Shown: positions 3,121 to 54,099 of the stretch, one piece after another
Layout: the number at the start of each line of letters is the position of its first letter
How positions within the stretch are numbered: position 1 is the first letter of the stretch
NCBI RefSeq assembly: GCF_000337215.1
Contig: NZ_AOHZ01000041.1
Coordinates: 1-64,000, forward strand
Direction: 5' to 3'
Source: Natronolimnohabitans innermongolicus JCM 12255
Lineage (GTDB): Archaea > Halobacteriota > Halobacteria > Halobacteriales > Natrialbaceae
Length of the DNA stretch: 64,000 nt
Made by a program: the position numbers and the translations under genes
Notes under the pieces: generated by a model
What the model was told of the DNA's origin: nothing
Seen by the model: the letters and a program-made list of their open reading frames with translations, nothing else
Database searches by the model: none

Positions 3121-4866
3121 CTACTGCCGATCGCGAAGCCGTTCGACGCGCTCGAGCGAGTTCGCGTCGGCCGGCTCCTTGTCGGAGCGCACCCCCTGGA
3201 ACCGCGGGAATCGAAGCGCGTAGCCCGACGAGTAGGTCGGCGACGTCTGGATCTCCTCGTACCCGACCTCGAAGACGACCGCGGGTTCGAGGTCGACTGT
3301 CTGTCCGTCCTCGGCGGCGATGTGGGGCTCGAGTAGCTCGGTCAACGCCTCGAGTTTCTCGTCGGTGATCCCCGTCGCGACCTTGCCGACGGTCTCGAGG
3401 TCGTCGCCGGCGTCGCCCGCGCGCACGGAGAGTTCGAACGTGCCAAGGAAGGTGGCGCGCCGACCCTCGCCCCACTCGGCGCCCGTCACGATGCAGTCGA
3501 GCGTCTCCACGTCGGGTTTGCGCTTTCGCCAGTGCTTACCGCGTCGACCCGGCGAGTACGTCGAGTCGGGGTCTTTGAGCATGATCCCCTCGTGGCCCGA
3601 CTCGAGCGCGTCGGCGTCGATCGCCTCGATTTCCTCGGGGTCGTCGGTGAGCCAGAGCAGCGAGAGTCCCTCGACGTCCGCCGGGTCCGGGTCCGGTTCC
3701 GAGTCCGAATCGGCCGCGAGAAGCGACTCGAGACGGTCGTGTCTGGCCGTCAGTGGCTCCGCGAGCAGGTCGTCGCCGTCGGCGTGGAGACAGTCGAAGA
3801 ACACCGGGCGGACGGTCACGTCCTCGCGGGCCTTCGCGACGTCGTGTTTCCGCCGGAAGCGCTTGAGCACCTCCTGGAAGGGCAGCGGCGAGCCGTCCGC
3901 GTCGATCGCGACGACCTCGCCGTCCAGAATGGCGGACTCCTCGAGAGTCCTCGCGGCGTACTCGACGACTTCGGGAAGCGCCGCCGTCACGTCTTCCATG
4001 TTCCGTGAGAAGACGCTGGTCTCCGACTCGCCGTCGCCGTCGACCCGGTGGTGCAGTTGGATTCGAGCCCCGTCGTATTTCCACTCGACGGCGGCTTCGT
4101 CCCACTCCTCGAGCGCCTCCGTCACCGTTCCGGCCTGGGCGAGCATCGCCTGCACGGGTCGGCCGACCTCGAGGTCCATCGCGTCGAGTCCGTCGATGCC
4201 CTCGTCGCGGGCCACTCGAGCGACCTGGCCGTAGTTGTTCGACACCTGCAGCGCGCGCTGGACGCGGTCGGTCGGCACGTCGAACGCCTCGCCGATCGCG
4301 TCGCGGACGGTTCCCTCGCCGACGCCGATGCGCATCTCCGAGAGGACCAGTCGGGCGAGGTACCGGGCCTCCTCGCTCGAGCAGCGGTTGAACAGGCCGA
4401 ACAGAAGGTCGACTTTGCGGTCCTGGCTGCCCGAGCCCTCTGTGGCGGCGAGATCGGCGAGGGTCTCGGCGACCTCGTTGACGGTGAGGTCGCCGCCGTT
4501 TCCGTTTTCCCCGCTTTCGTCGCCCCCACCACCGCCGGTGAACGCCCCCAGTCCCCGCTGGCCGCCGAAATCGTACGCCGCGGCGACCGCCCCGATCTCG
4601 CCGACCTCGGCGAGTCGCTCCTCGACGTCGTCGCCGCCGACGTTCGGTCCGGCCGCGCGGGCGATCGCCTCGTAGCACGTACTCGGGCCGATATCGAGAG
4701 TCGTCGAGTCCCAGGCCGGAAACACCCGACCCTGAACGAATCGGGCAACGACCTCGAGATCCGAGTTCGCGTCCGAAAGCAGGTCGCTGACGCGAGCGAC
4801 GATCTCGAGGTCGGCCGGCTCGGCTTCGATCGCGGCGGCGCGGTCGGCGAACGTGGCGAACTCCAT
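3121..4866 (-). CDS. lig: ATP-dependent DNA ligase
   Basis: 581 residues, the usual length for the archaeal replicative ligase that seals nicks and Okazaki fragments. The N-terminal DNA-binding domain occupies roughly residues 1-200. The adenylation domain carries the nucleotidyl motif EWKYDGARIQLH, whose Lys takes AMP. Further motifs seen are FSRNMEDVT, ILDGEVVAI, EGIMLKDP and HWRKRKPD. A C-terminal OB-fold follows. A glycine/acid-rich patch near residue 110 is a halophile-type loop. It is transcribed divergently from the GshA-like gene across a 92-base gap with a TATA box for each side. Confidence 0.95.
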   Translation of the reverse strand: MEFATFADRAAAIEAEPADLEIVARVSDLLSDANSDLEVVARFVQGRVFPAWDSTTLDIGPSTCYEAIARAAGPNVGGDDVEERLAEVGEIGAVAAAYDFGGQRGLGAFTGGGGGDESGENGNGGDLTVNEVAETLADLAATEGSGSQDRKVDLLFGLFNRCSSEEARYLARLVLSEMRIGVGEGTVRDAIGEAFDVPTDRVQRALQVSNNYGQVARVARDEGIDGLDAMDLEVGRPVQAMLAQAGTVTEALEEWDEAAVEWKYDGARIQLHHRVDGDGESETSVFSRNMEDVTAALPEVVEYAARTLEESAILDGEVVAIDADGSPLPFQEVLKRFRRKHDVAKAREDVTVRPVFFDCLHADGDDLLAEPLTARHDRLESLLAADSDSEPDPDPADVEGLSLLWLTDDPEEIEAIDADALESGHEGIMLKDPDSTYSPGRRGKHWRKRKPDVETLDCIVTGAEWGEGRRATFLGTFELSVRAGDAGDDLETVGKVATGITDEKLEALTELLEPHIAAEDGQTVDLEPAVVFEVGYEEIQTSPTYSSGYALRFPRFQGVRSDKEPADANSLERVERLRDRQ

Positions 4867-4958
4867 CGACGGGAAGTATCGTCGGGGCGGGTAAAACGGT
4901 TCTGAGACGACCGAGACGAGAGACAGAGTTTAAAGGTGGTCGTGCCGCACTCGGTGGT
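4867..4958. promoter_or_regulatory. Divergent promoter region, lig / GshA-like gene
   Basis: Rightward, TTTAAAG at 4929-4935 ends 23 bases before the ATG at 4959. Leftward, the minus strand reads GTTTTA at 4892-4897, 25 bases before the ligase ATG at 4866. Both spacings predict leaderless transcripts. No inverted repeat stands out between them. Confidence 0.6.
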
Positions 4959-6512
4959 ATGCCAGCAGAGGATCTCGTTCCGCGGGTCGCCGACGTGTTG
5001 ACGGTCGACGCCGAGGAGTTTCGCGAGCGGGCCGTCGCCGACGCCGCGGTGATCAAAGACGCCGTCGACGAGGGCGTCTTCGACAACCCGCAGGCGATCG
5101 TCGGCCTCGAGTACGAGTTCTACGCCGTAAAGAGCGACGACGGGGCCCTGCGGCGAGTCCCCCGCCGACTGCTCGAGCTCATCGGCTTCGAGAAGGAGCT
5201 CGGGCTTCACAACGCGGAGATGACGACCAGTCCGCAGCCGTTGAACGCCGACGGGCTGGTCGCCCAGGAGGCGGAGGTCAAGTCCCGCCTGCGGACGGCG
5301 CTGAACGTCACTCAGTCGGAGGGGATGCGGCTGGTCAGTGACGCGCTCTGGACGATTCCGCCGGAGGGAGAGGACGCGAGGACCTACCTCACCGACAGCG
5401 TCGAGCGGACGGTCGAGACGCCGGACGGCGGCGACCGGACCGTTCGCGTCGCGACCAACATGAGCGACTCCGCGCGCTACCACGCGATGGCGAACACGGA
5501 TCAGGCCGACTCCGCCGGGATGCGCGTCGAGGCGCCGAACGTCTCCCTGCAGGGCGATACGGTGATGCCCGAGAGCCTCATCACGTCGATCCAGCCCCAC
5601 TATCAGGTCCCCCACGCCCCCGACTTGCCGGATTACTTCAACTACGCGCTGCGCGCCGCGGGACCGTTGCTGGCGCTCGGCGTCAACTCGCCGTTCTTCC
5701 CGGCGGATCTGTACGACGAGGACGCGACGGCCGACGAGATCCTCGCCGACGCCTGGATGGAACACCGAATCAGCGTCTTCGAAACCGTCCTGAACGATCC
5801 GTCGACCGGCGAGGGGAAGGTGCGGTTCCCTCGCGATCTGACGAGCGTCGAGGAGGCTATCGACCGGATCGCGGGCGACGATACGATCGTGCCGATGTCC
5901 GTCGAACCCGGCGAGCGCTTCGACGATCAGTTCCCCCACTTCCGGCGCAAACACGGCACCTACTGGCGGTGGGTTCGCCCCGTCTTCGGCGGCCCGACGC
6001 GGTCCGCGGCCAACGCCCGCATCGAGTTCCGCCCGATTCCGGCCCAGCCGACCGTCCGCGACTCCGTCGCCTTCCTCGCCGCCTTCGCCGGCGTCCTCCA
6101 GAGCCTCACCCGGCTCGAGCACCCCGTCGTCGAACTCGACTGGGTGGTCGCCCGCGAGAACTTCTACGCGGCGATGCGCGACGGTCTCGAGGCGGATCTC
6201 ACCTGGATTACGAACGACGGAAAGGAGACGACGGACAAACTCGCACTCTACGATGACCTGCTCGACCACGCCGAGGACGGCCTCGTCAACCGCGGGCTGA
6301 CCGACGCGGAGGCCGCGAAGTACCTCTACCCGCTGCGACGGCGCGTCCGACAGGGCGTGACGCCTGCGAGTTGGAAACACCACCAGGTCGGTCGACGCCT
6401 CGAAGACGGCGACGACCTCGCAACGGCGATCGAAGGGATGCAACGCGAGTACGTCCGGCGTCAGGAGGAGACGCTGCTCGAGGGGAGCTTCGCCGACTGG
6501 ATCGGCGAGTAG
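4959..6512 (+). CDS. GshA/GCS2-superfamily ligase homologue A
   Basis: 517 residues. It resembles the carboxylate-amine ligase family that includes glutamate-cysteine ligase: GLEYEFYAV near residue 48 matches the paired-acid motif GIEEE, LGLHNAEMTTSP near 85 matches the next acidic substrate or metal strand, and TSIQPHYQVP near 208 matches the conserved Gln/His strand. It is clearly paralogous to the gene at 56874-58415: both share TYWRW, EFRP/EYRP-type and MQREYV segments over the whole length. It is longer than true GshA (362 residues at 19628-20716), so the substrate is unknown. It has its own leaderless-type promoter and no obvious operon partner. Confidence 0.7.
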   Translation: MPAEDLVPRVADVLTVDAEEFRERAVADAAVIKDAVDEGVFDNPQAIVGLEYEFYAVKSDDGALRRVPRRLLELIGFEKELGLHNAEMTTSPQPLNADGLVAQEAEVKSRLRTALNVTQSEGMRLVSDALWTIPPEGEDARTYLTDSVERTVETPDGGDRTVRVATNMSDSARYHAMANTDQADSAGMRVEAPNVSLQGDTVMPESLITSIQPHYQVPHAPDLPDYFNYALRAAGPLLALGVNSPFFPADLYDEDATADEILADAWMEHRISVFETVLNDPSTGEGKVRFPRDLTSVEEAIDRIAGDDTIVPMSVEPGERFDDQFPHFRRKHGTYWRWVRPVFGGPTRSAANARIEFRPIPAQPTVRDSVAFLAAFAGVLQSLTRLEHPVVELDWVVARENFYAAMRDGLEADLTWITNDGKETTDKLALYDDLLDHAEDGLVNRGLTDAEAAKYLYPLRRRVRQGVTPASWKHHQVGRRLEDGDDLATAIEGMQREYVRRQEETLLEGSFADWIGE

Positions 6513-49463: not shown

Positions 49464-49792
49464 GAACTTGTTCTCTGAACATACATTATCGCATGACTTT
49501 AAATTTTGGAATTTTTTCACGCGGAAGGGGCCGGGCCAATACCACATGAGTGTGACGGCCATCGTCGGTGAATTCATCGCTTCGAATCGATGAATGTACG
49601 ATTCCGAGGCGGTGGAGCAGACGAGTCGGAAAAACACGAAATTATCGGCTATCGACGACGGCGCTCGAGCGGTAATTCGTTCCTTCTCGACGGTAAATTG
49701 GCTGCTGATAGCCGTACCGGGGCGACGACCGATCGTCGCAAAAGACGTGACCATCCACAACCATTATATTCTCGTAAACTGCTGCTAGAATC
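49464..49792. other. 329-base divergent region before bioB
   Basis: Holds the promoter of the acidic-protein gene on the left (A/T-rich, 49480-49515) and the bioB promoter/operator on the right. The 200 bases between (49530-49750) show no gene: frames there lack coding bias. Confidence 0.5.
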
Positions 49793-49805
49793 GTGGTTTA
49801 CGAGA
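49763..49805 (+). promoter_or_regulatory. bioB promoter with BirA-type operator spanning the start codon
   Basis: TATA box ATTATAT (49763-49769) lies 23 bases before the GTG start (49793), predicting a leaderless mRNA. A perfect dyad, TCTCGTAAAC (49770-49779) and GTTTACGAGA (49796-49805), follows at once. Its core, GTAAAC...GTTTAC with a 14-base gap between 9-base arms, matches the BirA operator pattern TTGTAAACC-N14-15-GGTTTACAA. The right arm lies within codons 2-5 of bioB. Confidence 0.8.
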
Positions 49806-50905
49806 CGAACAACGAGACGGTCGACGACGCGCTCGAGCGGGTGCTCGCCGGCGAGCGACTCGATCGAACCGACGGGCTCGCGCTGATGGCGCAGCCAGTC
49901 GAGGCGCTGGCGGACGCCGGTGCGGTCGTTCGCGATCGCTTCGGCGACGGCACGGTCGACGCCTGCTCGATCGTCAACGCGAAGGCGGGCAACTGCGCCG
50001 AGGACTGTGGCTTCTGTGCCCAGTCGGTCCACTTCGATACCGGCATCGACACCTACGGCTTCCTCGGCCCCGAGAAGGTCCTCGAGGCCGCAAAGCGAGC
50101 CGAACGAGACGGCGCCCAGCGCTTTGGCATCGTCGTCGCCGAGAAGGGCGTCTCGAAGGACCGTCGTCCGGAGGAGTGGAACGAGGTGATCGAGGCGATC
50201 CGCCTCGTCCGCGAGGAGTGCGACCTCGAGGTCGACGCCTCGCTCGGCATTCTGACCGAGGAGGAGGCCGCGATCCTCGCCGACGAGGGGATCAACCACT
50301 ACAATCACAACATCGAAACCTCCCCGCGATACTTCCCCGAGATCGTCAACACCCACAGCTTCGAGGACCGCGTGAAGACCCTCGAAGTGGCCAAGGAGGC
50401 CGGGATGGATCTCTGTGCCGGCGTCATCCTCGGGATGGGCGAGACGCCGACCGACCGGGTCGACGCCGCCATCGCGCTGCAGGACATCGGCATCTCCTCG
50501 CTCCCGGTGAACGTCTTGAACCCCGTCGAGGGAACGCCGCTGTACGACCGGGGCGCCGACATCACGACCGAGGAGATCGTCAAGACGGTCGCCGTCTACA
50601 AACTGCTCCACCCCGAGTCGCGAGTGCGACTCACCGGCGGCCGCGAGGCGAATCTGGAACCTGACGAACAGCACCTGCCCCTCGAGGCCGGCGCGGACGG
50701 CATTCTCACCGGCGACTACCTCACGACGGAGGGCCAGTCGCCCGGCGAGGACATCGAGATCATCGAGCGCGCGGGCCTCGAGCCGAATCGGGAGACAAAC
50801 GAGTTCGATCCCGAGCAGGTCAAGACTCGACACGACGCGTCGACGGAGTCCGCGACCGACGCGGAGACGGCGGCGAGCACTGGTGCGGAACCGAGCGACG
50901 ACTGA
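49793..50905 (+). CDS. bioB: Biotin synthase
   Basis: 370 residues, radical-SAM enzyme inserting sulfur into dethiobiotin. The FeS motif is CAEDCGFC (C68, C72, C75). The early block is DACSIVNAKAGNCAED. YNHNIETSPRYFPEIVNTHSFEDR, GMGETPTDRVD and NVLNPVEGTPL are conserved BioB segments, and GGRE with the Arg ligand of the auxiliary cluster is seen at LTGGREANL. The C-terminal 45 residues are an acidic extension. GTG at 49793 fits the promoter. First gene of bioB-bioU-bioF-bioD. Confidence 0.95.
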   Translation: MVYETNNETVDDALERVLAGERLDRTDGLALMAQPVEALADAGAVVRDRFGDGTVDACSIVNAKAGNCAEDCGFCAQSVHFDTGIDTYGFLGPEKVLEAAKRAERDGAQRFGIVVAEKGVSKDRRPEEWNEVIEAIRLVREECDLEVDASLGILTEEEAAILADEGINHYNHNIETSPRYFPEIVNTHSFEDRVKTLEVAKEAGMDLCAGVILGMGETPTDRVDAAIALQDIGISSLPVNVLNPVEGTPLYDRGADITTEEIVKTVAVYKLLHPESRVRLTGGREANLEPDEQHLPLEAGADGILTGDYLTTEGQSPGEDIEIIERAGLEPNRETNEFDPEQVKTRHDASTESATDAETAASTGAEPSDD

Positions 50906-50944
50906 CACGCAGCGATTCAGCGGAACGCGACTACATCGACAACA

Positions 50945-52024
50945 ATGGACGAAATCACGTTTGCGGTACTCGGAACCGGCGGTATCGGCCGACGAGCACT
51001 CGAGGTCAGCCAGCACAAAGACCACCTGACGCCGGTCGCGGCCTGCGATCGTCACGGCACCGCGATCGATTTCGACGGGTTCGACGTCGACGAACTGCTC
51101 GCGGCGACCGAGGGCAACATCGACAGCGAGCCGCGAGACGACGGGGTCGCAACCGACGGCGGCACGGGCGCCACGCCAGCCGACGGCGAGGGTGGCGTCA
51201 AGCAACACGGTGAGGATAGGGGCGTCGTGGCCTCCGAACAGGCCCGATCCAGCGCGGATCCGATCCAGGATATCATCGACCACGGTGACGGCATCGACGC
51301 CGTCTTGCTCGCGCTCCCGAACTACGAGCACGATTTCATCCCGCGGACCGCAGACCGGTTCGTCGAGGGCGGCTACTCGGGCGTCATGATCGACGTGCTC
51401 AAACGCTCGCGCGTGATCGACATGTTGGACGACCGAAGCGACGCGTTCGAGGACGCCGGCATCACGTTCGTCTGCGGCGCCGGCGCGACGCCCGGCCTCC
51501 TGACCGGCGCGGCCGCTCTCGCCGCCCAGTCGTTCGTCGAGGTGGAGTCCGTCGACATCTGGTGGGGCGTCGGCCTCAAGTCGGGCTACGAGGACAACCG
51601 CGGCACCGTCCGCGAAGACATCGCCCACCTCCCTGAGTACGACATCGAGACGGCCCGCGACCTCTCCGAGGCGGAGATCGAAGCGATAATCGACGACCAC
51701 GACGGCGTCATCGAGTTCGAAGACATGGAACACGCCGACGACGTCCTCCTCGAGCGTGCGGGGATCTGTGCCGCCGAAGACGTCTCTGTCGGCGGCATCT
51801 TAGACGTCCACAGCGACGAGAAACCGACGACCACGACGGTCAGCGTGACGGGACGGACGTTCGACGGCGAGACGGCGACGAACACGTTCCAGTTGGGCGA
51901 CGAAACGAGCATGGAAGCCAACGTCAACGGACCGGCGCTCGGCTACCTGCGCGCCGGCGTCCGCCGGAACCGCGCCGGCGAGTACGGCGTCGTCGGCCCC
52001 GCGGAACTGATGCCGGGGTTCTGA
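50945..52024 (+). CDS. bioU: BioU-like NAD-dependent protein, probable DAPA synthase
   Basis: 359 residues. The Rossmann fold starts ITFAVLGTGGIGRRALE (GxGxxG, residues 10-15). ALPNYEHDFIPRTADRFVEGGYSG and VMIDVLKRSRVIDML follow, then a saccharopine/homoserine-dehydrogenase-like second domain (FVCGAGATPGLLTGAAALAAQ, VDIWWGVGLKSGYEDNRG). Lys153 in VLKR falls, after discounting a low-complexity acidic/polar insert of about 30 residues (62-103), near the Lys124 that cyanobacterial BioU sacrifices as amino donor to make 7,8-diaminononanoate. It sits where bioA would be expected, between bioB and bioF. Assignment rests on context plus fold, not on a database match. Confidence 0.75.
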   Translation: MDEITFAVLGTGGIGRRALEVSQHKDHLTPVAACDRHGTAIDFDGFDVDELLAATEGNIDSEPRDDGVATDGGTGATPADGEGGVKQHGEDRGVVASEQARSSADPIQDIIDHGDGIDAVLLALPNYEHDFIPRTADRFVEGGYSGVMIDVLKRSRVIDMLDDRSDAFEDAGITFVCGAGATPGLLTGAAALAAQSFVEVESVDIWWGVGLKSGYEDNRGTVREDIAHLPEYDIETARDLSEAEIEAIIDDHDGVIEFEDMEHADDVLLERAGICAAEDVSVGGILDVHSDEKPTTTTVSVTGRTFDGETATNTFQLGDETSMEANVNGPALGYLRAGVRRNRAGEYGVVGPAELMPGF

Positions 52025-52144
52025 GTCACAGCCGTGAGCCGTCTCCGCCCCTCGTTCGTCTCCGATCGAGCCGAGCGGCCGCCATCGAGACCCATCGTCG
52101 AGGCCGGTCCGCCGAATCAGAATCGTGAGAGTGAAACCACGTCG

Positions 52145-53371
52145 ATGACTCCGTACAGTCGAATGGACGATCGCGGGTTCGACCTCGAGGGTCGGCTACA
52201 CGACCTCGAGGATGCCGATCTGAAACGGACGCTGTCGCCCGTCGACCGGGTCGCCGAGCGAGGCTACTTCGCGGAGCCCTCGGGCGGCGAACTGCCGGTT
52301 CTCGACTCGACGGAAGCGCTGGTGTTCGCCTCGAACAACTACCTGGGGCTGACGAACGACCAGCGGATCGAGGACGCCGCCAGACAGGCCGCCGCGACGG
52401 TCGGAACGGGCGCGGGTGCGAGTCGACTCGTCACCGGTGACACGATGGTCCACCAGGACCTAGAGCGCCAGCTCGCCGAGACGAAAGGTACCGAACGCGC
52501 CCTCGCGTTCTCGTCGGGCTACGCCGCGAACGTCGGCACGATCACGGCGCTCGATCCCGACGTGATCTTCTCCGACGAGTACAACCACGCGAGCATCATC
52601 GACGGCTGTCGACTGACCGACGCCGAGACGATCGTTTACGACCACTGCGACGCGACGAGCTTGCGGACGAAACTCGAGCGTCGAGCCGCGTTCGACGACG
52701 CGAACGAGGAGTCGTGGCTGATCGTCACCGACTCCGTCTTCAGCATGGACGGAACCGTCGCCCCGATGGCGGACATCTGCGACGCCGCGGAGGCGTTCGG
52801 CGCCTGGGTGATGGCCGACGAGGCCCACGCGACCGGCCTCTACGCCGACGGCGGCGGCGTCGTGCAGGCCGAGGGACTCGGCGACCGCGTCGATATCCAG
52901 ATGGGAACGCTCTCGAAGGCGCTCGCGAGCCAGGGCGGCTACGTCGCCGGCAGCTCGGATCTGATCGAGTGCCTGCTGAACGACGCCCGGCCGTTCGTCT
53001 TCTCGACTGGTCTCGCGCCGCCGGCCGCCGCCGCCGCGAGCGAGGCGCTCCACGTCGCCCGCCACACCGACGTCCGCGAACGGCTCTGGGAGAACGTCGC
53101 TCACCTCCGTGACGGCCTCGAGTCGATGGGCTTTACGGTTCTCGGCGACTCGCAGATCCTTCCCGTCCTCGTCGGCGACCGCGAGGACGCGCTGGCACTC
53201 GCCGACGAACTGCAGGACCGCGGCGTCATCGCGCCCGCGATCCGGCCCCCGACGGTTCCCGAACGCACGAGTCGCATCCGGATCGTCCCGATCGCCTCCC
53301 ACGAACAGGGAGACATCGTGAAGTGTCTCGAGGCGTTCCGGGGCGCCGGCGAGGAGATCGGATTGCTATGA
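52145..53371 (+). CDS. bioF: 8-amino-7-oxononanoate synthase
   Basis: 408 residues, PLP enzyme condensing pimeloyl-thioester with alanine. FASNNYLGLTNDQRI, GTGAGASRLVTGDTMVHQDLE, FSDEYNHASIIDGCRL, DSVFSMDGTVAPMADI, MADEAHATGLYADGG and the Lys-bearing TLSKALASQGGYVAG are the canonical blocks. Starts at 52034 (GTG), 52145 and 52163 are in frame; the conserved part begins near RGFDLEGRL, so 52145 or 52163 is likely. Overlaps bioD by 4 bases (ATGA). Confidence 0.93.
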   Translation: MTPYSRMDDRGFDLEGRLHDLEDADLKRTLSPVDRVAERGYFAEPSGGELPVLDSTEALVFASNNYLGLTNDQRIEDAARQAAATVGTGAGASRLVTGDTMVHQDLERQLAETKGTERALAFSSGYAANVGTITALDPDVIFSDEYNHASIIDGCRLTDAETIVYDHCDATSLRTKLERRAAFDDANEESWLIVTDSVFSMDGTVAPMADICDAAEAFGAWVMADEAHATGLYADGGGVVQAEGLGDRVDIQMGTLSKALASQGGYVAGSSDLIECLLNDARPFVFSTGLAPPAAAAASEALHVARHTDVRERLWENVAHLRDGLESMGFTVLGDSQILPVLVGDREDALALADELQDRGVIAPAIRPPTVPERTSRIRIVPIASHEQGDIVKCLEAFRGAGEEIGLL

Positions 53372-54099
53372 CCGGCGTCGAGACCGAGTCCGAGCAGGAC
53401 CTCTCCGGGGCGACGCTGGAACGGCCGATCGCGGTCGTCGGCACCGACACCGACGTCGGCAAGACCGTCGTTACGGCGGGGATCACGCGCGGGCTGCGAC
53501 GGGCCGGTGCCGACGCGCGGGCGATCAAGCCCGCACAGACCGGCCACCCGCCGGACGACGACGCCAGCTTCGTCGCCGACGCCTGCGGCGACGCCGACGC
53601 GGCGACCTGTCCGCGATACCTCGAGCCCGCACTCGCCCCGCGCGTCGCGGCCGAGGAGGCGGGAGCGCAACTCGCCTACGACGACGTGCTGACGGCCTGC
53701 GAGGAGGCTATCGCCGAGACGCCGGTGCCGATCGTCGAGGGAATCGGCGGCCTTCGCGTCCCGCTGGCCGGCGACCGCGAGGTGATCGACCTCGTCGCCG
53801 ACCTCGAGGCGACCGCCGTCGTCGTCACGCGCTCGGGACTGGGGACGCTCAACCACAGCGCACTCTCGGTCGACGCCCTCGAGCACCGCGGCGTCGACGT
53901 CGCGGGCGTCGTCTGCAACGAGTACGCGGGCGCGACGGTCGCCGAGCGGACGAACCCCGACGAACTCGAGCGGATGACCGGTCACGTCGTGGAGACGATC
54001 CCGCCGCTTTCGGGCGAGTCGCCGGCGGCGATGGCTGCGGGCGTCGTCGACGCGCTTCCGACGAGGTTTTTCGAAACGCTCGTCGACGACGACCGATAG
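53368..54099 (+). CDS. bioD: Dethiobiotin synthetase
   Basis: 243 residues; closes the ureido ring of dethiobiotin using CO2 and ATP. The P-loop is VVGTDTDVGKTVVTAG. AIKPAQTGHPPDD and IVEGIGGLRVPLAGDREV follow, with the conserved Thr/Glu/Gly residues for DAPA binding, and VVTRSGLGTLNHSALS closes the core. Start at 53368 lies on the bioF stop (ATGA). Its substrate DAPA must come from BioU, as no bioA is present here. Confidence 0.94.
   Translation: MTGVETESEQDLSGATLERPIAVVGTDTDVGKTVVTAGITRGLRRAGADARAIKPAQTGHPPDDDASFVADACGDADAATCPRYLEPALAPRVAAEEAGAQLAYDDVLTACEEAIAETPVPIVEGIGGLRVPLAGDREVIDLVADLEATAVVVTRSGLGTLNHSALSVDALEHRGVDVAGVVCNEYAGATVAERTNPDELERMTGHVVETIPPLSGESPAAMAAGVVDALPTRFFETLVDDDR

Follow-up and report, generated by a model that had tools for sequence, protein, structure and literature searches.

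An archaeal BioU very probably replaces BioA in the biotin operon of a haloarchaeon

Which protein makes 7,8-diaminononanoate in haloarchaea that encode the rest of the late biotin pathway? In a survey based on KEGG (31 Halobacteria), bioF was recorded in 18 genomes, bioD in 14, bioB in 19, and bioA and bioW in none (PMC6138646). Natronomonas pharaonis has been reported to be a biotin prototroph, and Natrialba magadii is a biotin auxotroph that has no biosynthesis genes and carries BioYMN (PMC3403918). Here we analyse a biotin operon in a 64,000-nucleotide stretch of the Natronolimnohabitans innermongolicus genome (hereafter, the window). We conclude that the second gene of this operon very probably encodes an archaeal BioU that replaces BioA, filling the class-wide gap left by the 2018 survey, in which haloarchaea had bioF, bioD and bioB but no bioA. 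Our literature search found no biochemistry or genetics on this haloarchaeal protein. It also found no mention of BioU in haloarchaea in open-access text, a search that did not reach the primary BioU paper.

Four-gene biotin operon

The haloarchaeal operon occupies positions 49793-54099 of the window and comprises four genes, bioB-bioU-bioF-bioD, all on the forward strand:

49793..50905, + strand: bioB, biotin synthase, GTG start (TIGR00433 in NCBIfam, 340.6 bits, cut-off 225)
50945..52024, + strand: bioU, 359 amino acids, relative of Synechocystis BioU (Slr0355) by phmmer, Foldseek and VIA-align
52034..53371, + strand: bioF, 8-amino-7-oxononanoate synthase, open reading frame (best family TIGR00858, E = 1e-120, 402.7 bits, slightly below the cut-off of 426)
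53323..54099, + strand: bioD, dethiobiotin synthase, open reading frame (TIGR00347, 108.8 bits, cut-off 83.3)

The real starts of bioF and bioD are probably downstream of the starts of these open reading frames, at around 52145 or 52163 for bioF and at an ATG around 53368 for bioD, which overlaps the bioF stop. This gene order had been proposed in an initial annotation of the DNA; all four genes are present at the positions given there, and we found no BioA-type gene within the operon.

The second gene belongs to the BioU family

A phmmer search of the sequences of solved structures matched the second-gene protein to Slr0355 (Synechocystis BioU, 6ir4) with an E value of 5.2e-83 and 39% identity across the full fold. 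In hmmscan against NCBIfam, it was the only one of the four operon proteins to match the BioU model NF047886 (E = 2.7e-99); the score of 332.2 bits is below the curated equivalog cut-off of 600 bits, which none of the 391 haloarchaeal genomes searched reaches. The model appears to be tuned to closer kin of the Synechocystis protein, and its cut-off is an annotation threshold rather than a biochemical feature. Such a high cut-off would account for the gene not being named BioU by public pipelines. RefSeq labels the homologues in Haladaptatus and Haloferax larsenii ‘transcriptional regulator’ and the same gene in Natronococcus occultus ‘hypothetical protein’.

The first of these labels implies that the protein is a regulator rather than an enzyme. 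We consider this extremely improbable: no DNA-binding domain was found (the protein matched no Pfam domain), the entire model matches BioU, and the role of regulator probably falls to a distinct BirA protein, which carries an HTH_11 domain. The second gene instead represents a new, archaeal branch of the known BioU enzyme family.

The predicted structure agrees with this assignment. An AlphaFold2 model built from 43 homologues has a mean pLDDT of 82.8, and the five BioU entries take Foldseek ranks 1-5. Superposition with VIA-align on all five BioU crystal structures gave Z scores of 39.8-40.5 at 2.4-2.6 Å over 319-320 residues; the next-best fold, an amine dehydrogenase, reached a Z score of 18.4. 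Three features of the coding sequence are considered below:

51119..51253, + strand: codons of residues 59-103, a polar insert of variable length (from pLDDT and homologue lengths)
51401..51403, + strand: codon of Lys153, which corresponds to the sacrificial Lys124 (from alignment to Slr0355)
51731..51733, + strand: codon of His263, counterpart of His233 (from alignment to Slr0355 and the 6k38 entry title)

The polar insert, first noted as residues 62-103, is real: residues 59-88 (pLDDT <50) are the sole long disordered stretch in the model, and between residues 58 and 104 the homologues carry a variable 0-89 residues.

The counterpart of the sacrificial lysine is invariant

The phmmer alignment pairs Lys153 with the lysine in the ‘LKR’ motif of Slr0355. 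The aligned position holds Ala in the 6itd and 6k37 chains, the entry titles of which name K124A. The initial annotation had equated Lys153 with Lys124 of Synechocystis BioU; its numbering was correct, and the superposition (Z of around 40) places the one residue on the other. By counting along the alignment, His263 is opposite His233, the residue mutated in PDB 6k38 (H233A conjugate).

We collected 119 distinct homologues of full or near-full length; apart from those of one or two genomes that belong to a different archaeal family within the phylum, all are haloarchaeal. Lysine occupies the Lys153 position in all 117 that cover the site, and histidine the His263 position in 119 of 119. Residues 178-184 (GAGATPG), 223-225 (RED), H228 and 261-263 (MEH) are also invariant. 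The lysine is also kept in the complete one from outside the haloarchaea (G665, the gene of which appears in both L153 and L163). A non-lysine variant at position 153, considered as the mark of a catalytic, non-suicide form, occurs in 0 of the 117 homologues, none of which has Ala, Ser or Gly. The suicide mechanism demands an invariant lysine, yet this invariance is no proof of single turnover.

No recognised bioA is present and bioU accompanies bioD

The draft assembly has 121 contigs and is 99.8% complete. Searched for bioA across the whole genome (TIGR00508), it yielded best scores of 230.7 and 221 bits against a curated cut-off of 405, that is, no bona fide bioA. With the same search, bioA exceeded the cut-off in six control genomes and in 0 of 391 haloarchaeal genomes.

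Searches of these 391 genomes for bioU (counted at E < 1e-30) and for bioD gave two sets, which a script then compared. We identified bioU in 150 genomes and bioD in 151, including all 150 with bioU. In the lone genome with bioD and no bioU (G227), two contigs end in a truncated bioF beside bioD. We rejected this genome as a natural BioA user: given that its bioFD copies run off the contigs, the missing bioU is attributable to an assembly break.

These distributions bear on the idea that an aminotransferase encoded elsewhere in the genome is the true diaminononanoate synthase, with the BioU-like gene serving another role in the operon. Seven class III aminotransferases are present, among them the two with the best bioA scores, and one of the seven could in principle be promiscuous. 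However, all seven score below the bioA cut-off and better against other families (acetylornithine/LysJ, diaminobutyrate/GABA type, PRK05769-like and HemL, with one in an uncharacterised subfamily), and across the class it is bioU rather than an aminotransferase that goes with bioD. We therefore judge an aminotransferase to be a very improbable source of this activity.

Genes located between bioU and bioF were also considered as BioA and rejected. In three genomes of one genus, the intervening gene is a PRK05769-like class III aminotransferase on the opposite strand (L177 3961-5277, L180 3938-5254 and L176 about 4613-6012) that scores weakly against bioA (160 bits); in other genomes it is unrelated.

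Taken together, the BioU identity, the placement of Lys153 on Lys124, the absence of a recognised bioA and the co-occurrence of bioU with bioD indicate that the gene most likely makes diaminononanoate in the stead of BioA. The initial proposal that a BioU-like protein fills this step is thus supported.

Proposed reaction and turnover

According to two reports, Synechocystis BioU forms a conjugate through Lys124, takes up CO2 and turns over once (PMC12915131, PMC7133116). We carry the substrate, cofactor use and CO2 uptake over from that enzyme to the haloarchaeal protein, and propose the following route. BioF would supply 8-amino-7-oxononanoate, the ketone of which would condense with the Lys153 amino group of BioU. 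The resulting imine would be reduced by NAD(P)H, and the conjugate would take up CO2 and be reoxidised by NAD(P)+. The carbamate of 7,8-diaminononanoate would then be released, leaving Lys153 as an aldehyde (allysine) and the enzyme spent, so that each BioU molecule would be used once. BioD and BioB would complete dethiobiotin and biotin.

The chemistry of haloarchaeal BioU is probably single-turnover. A sacrificial enzyme is costly, and a BioU relative could instead make diaminononanoate over many turnovers, either by restoration of the Lys153 amino group or with a free amine as donor; the aminotransferase encoded between bioU and bioF in one genus could be imagined to act with BioU. However, that gene is on the opposite strand and is confined to three of the genomes examined, the Lys153 position is lysine in all 117 homologues that cover it, and no repair enzyme is known. 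Many turnovers therefore seem unlikely, and we retain the sacrificial reaction as the working model.

Gene order and copy number among haloarchaea

The full bioB-bioU-bioF-bioD order is found in 54 of 61 named haloarchaeal loci. Some genomes have split operons in which bioB-bioU is apart from bioF-bioD (for example, G057, loci L164 and L165). Pairs of bioB and bioU without bioF-bioD occur at L027, L029 and L164-L167, with split operons in Halostagnicola and others, and Halorientalis salina (L048, L178) has an additional bioB-bioU copy that lacks bioF and bioD. BioB consumes part of itself and BioU probably does too, so dosage may matter. In Haloterrigena sp. H1 (L036, L037), the whole bioB-bioU-bioF-bioD operon is present twice, on two contigs. 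In one genome (G265; L123, L126 and L128), bioU is broken by frame changes and bioB, bioF and bioD are present; this bioU is either a pseudogene or the product of a sequencing error.

The neighbouring genes common to the named loci (replication factor C, succinyl-CoA synthetase and a RuBisCO-like protein) include no further pathway gene. At L023 (268-1530) and 14 further named loci, from about 15 haloarchaeal genomes, the gene for the RuBisCO-like protein (a guess from sequence) lies upstream of the operon. For Haloferax mediterranei, a published report gives HFX_5076, HFX_5077 and HFX_5079 as bioD, bioF and bioB (PMC10779274), from which HFX_5078 would be the place of bioU.

Predicted control by BirA

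Two elements were annotated at the start of the operon:

49764..49769, + strand: TATA-like box (ttatat), lying roughly 24-29 bases upstream of the bioB start codon
49772..49803, no strand assigned: predicted BirA-type palindromic operator TCGTAAAC-N16-GTTTACGA (from genome matches and arm pairing in relatives)

The position of the box, the role of which we infer, suggests a leaderless transcript. Most of the 56 upstream regions examined in relatives have an A/T-rich TATA-like element in a similar position.

The palindrome lies between the TATA-like box and the bioB start, with its right arm overlapping the first bioB codons. It is the sole exact match in the 4.59 Mb genome; of two copies with one mismatch, one is directly before bioY (G000 C79:28647-28678). 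With one exception, the outer arm positions are complementary in 39-56 of the 56 relatives. Because the right arm is also coding sequence, conservation there would by itself be weak evidence, and the argument is carried by the left arm and the bioY copy.

Operators of BirA follow a palindromic consensus close to TTGTAAACC-N14-GGTTTACAA. Consistent with a candidate operator of this type, a palindrome precedes both bioB and bioY, and the genome encodes a biotin protein ligase that has HTH_11 as its N-terminal domain. On these sequence features, the palindromes and BirA likely constitute a biotin regulon in haloarchaea that resembles the known BirA regulon. BirA would repress the biotin operon and the biotin transporter when biotin is plentiful, and a biotin-repressed promoter would allow induction at biotin shortage.

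Source of the pimeloyl group

Of the 391 haloarchaeal genomes, 3 were found to encode bioW (6-carboxyhexanoate-CoA ligase). In one of these (G021), the gene lies within a bioB-bioW-bioU-bioF-bioD cluster, an arrangement shared by the related archaeon G665. In both of the following loci, bioW lies between bioB and bioU:

L174 2889-3659: bioW
L163 4692-5465: bioW

Further bioW loci are L185 and L186. In the other haloarchaea, no recognised pimeloyl-CoA source was found beside the late pathway in a search for bioW only, which leaves BioC/BioH-like proteins, BioI and BioZ as other possible routes. We offer as a tentative picture, in which we place somewhat less than even confidence, that haloarchaea as a class combine a single-turnover BioU with bacterial-type BirA control and are mostly fed pimeloyl-CoA from an as yet unrecognised source.

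Discussion

The reading of this operon would extend cyanobacterial suicide chemistry into the archaea, and it corrects the public misannotation of the gene as a transcriptional regulator. A further gap in the pathway thereby comes to light, the origin of the pimeloyl group. Haloferax and other genetically tractable haloarchaea are hosts in which to ask why cells use a one-shot enzyme.

BioA and BioK, the PLP-dependent diaminononanoate aminotransferases (TIGR00508), act at the same proposed pathway step but are unrelated to BioU in fold and chemistry, and none scores above the cut-off in this genome or in the 391 haloarchaeal genomes. Amine, diaminopimelate and lysine dehydrogenases (for example, 6iau, 1dap and 3abi) are distant structural kin that share an NAD(P)-binding Rossmann domain (Z of around 17-18); they match much more weakly than BioU does, with 10-18% identity. 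Synechocystis BioU (Slr0355; PDB 6ir4, 6itd, 6k36, 6k37 and 6k38) is alike in fold (Z of around 40), in the lysine that is sacrificed (K124, here K153) and the other residue mutated in the crystal structures (H233, here H263), and in its place in the pathway, with bioF, bioD and bioB present and bioA absent. The present protein differs in that it is archaeal, is 39% identical, scores under the cut-off of the curated NCBIfam model, contains a polar insert (residues 59-103) that is partly disordered, and is encoded within an operon with bioB, bioF and bioD.
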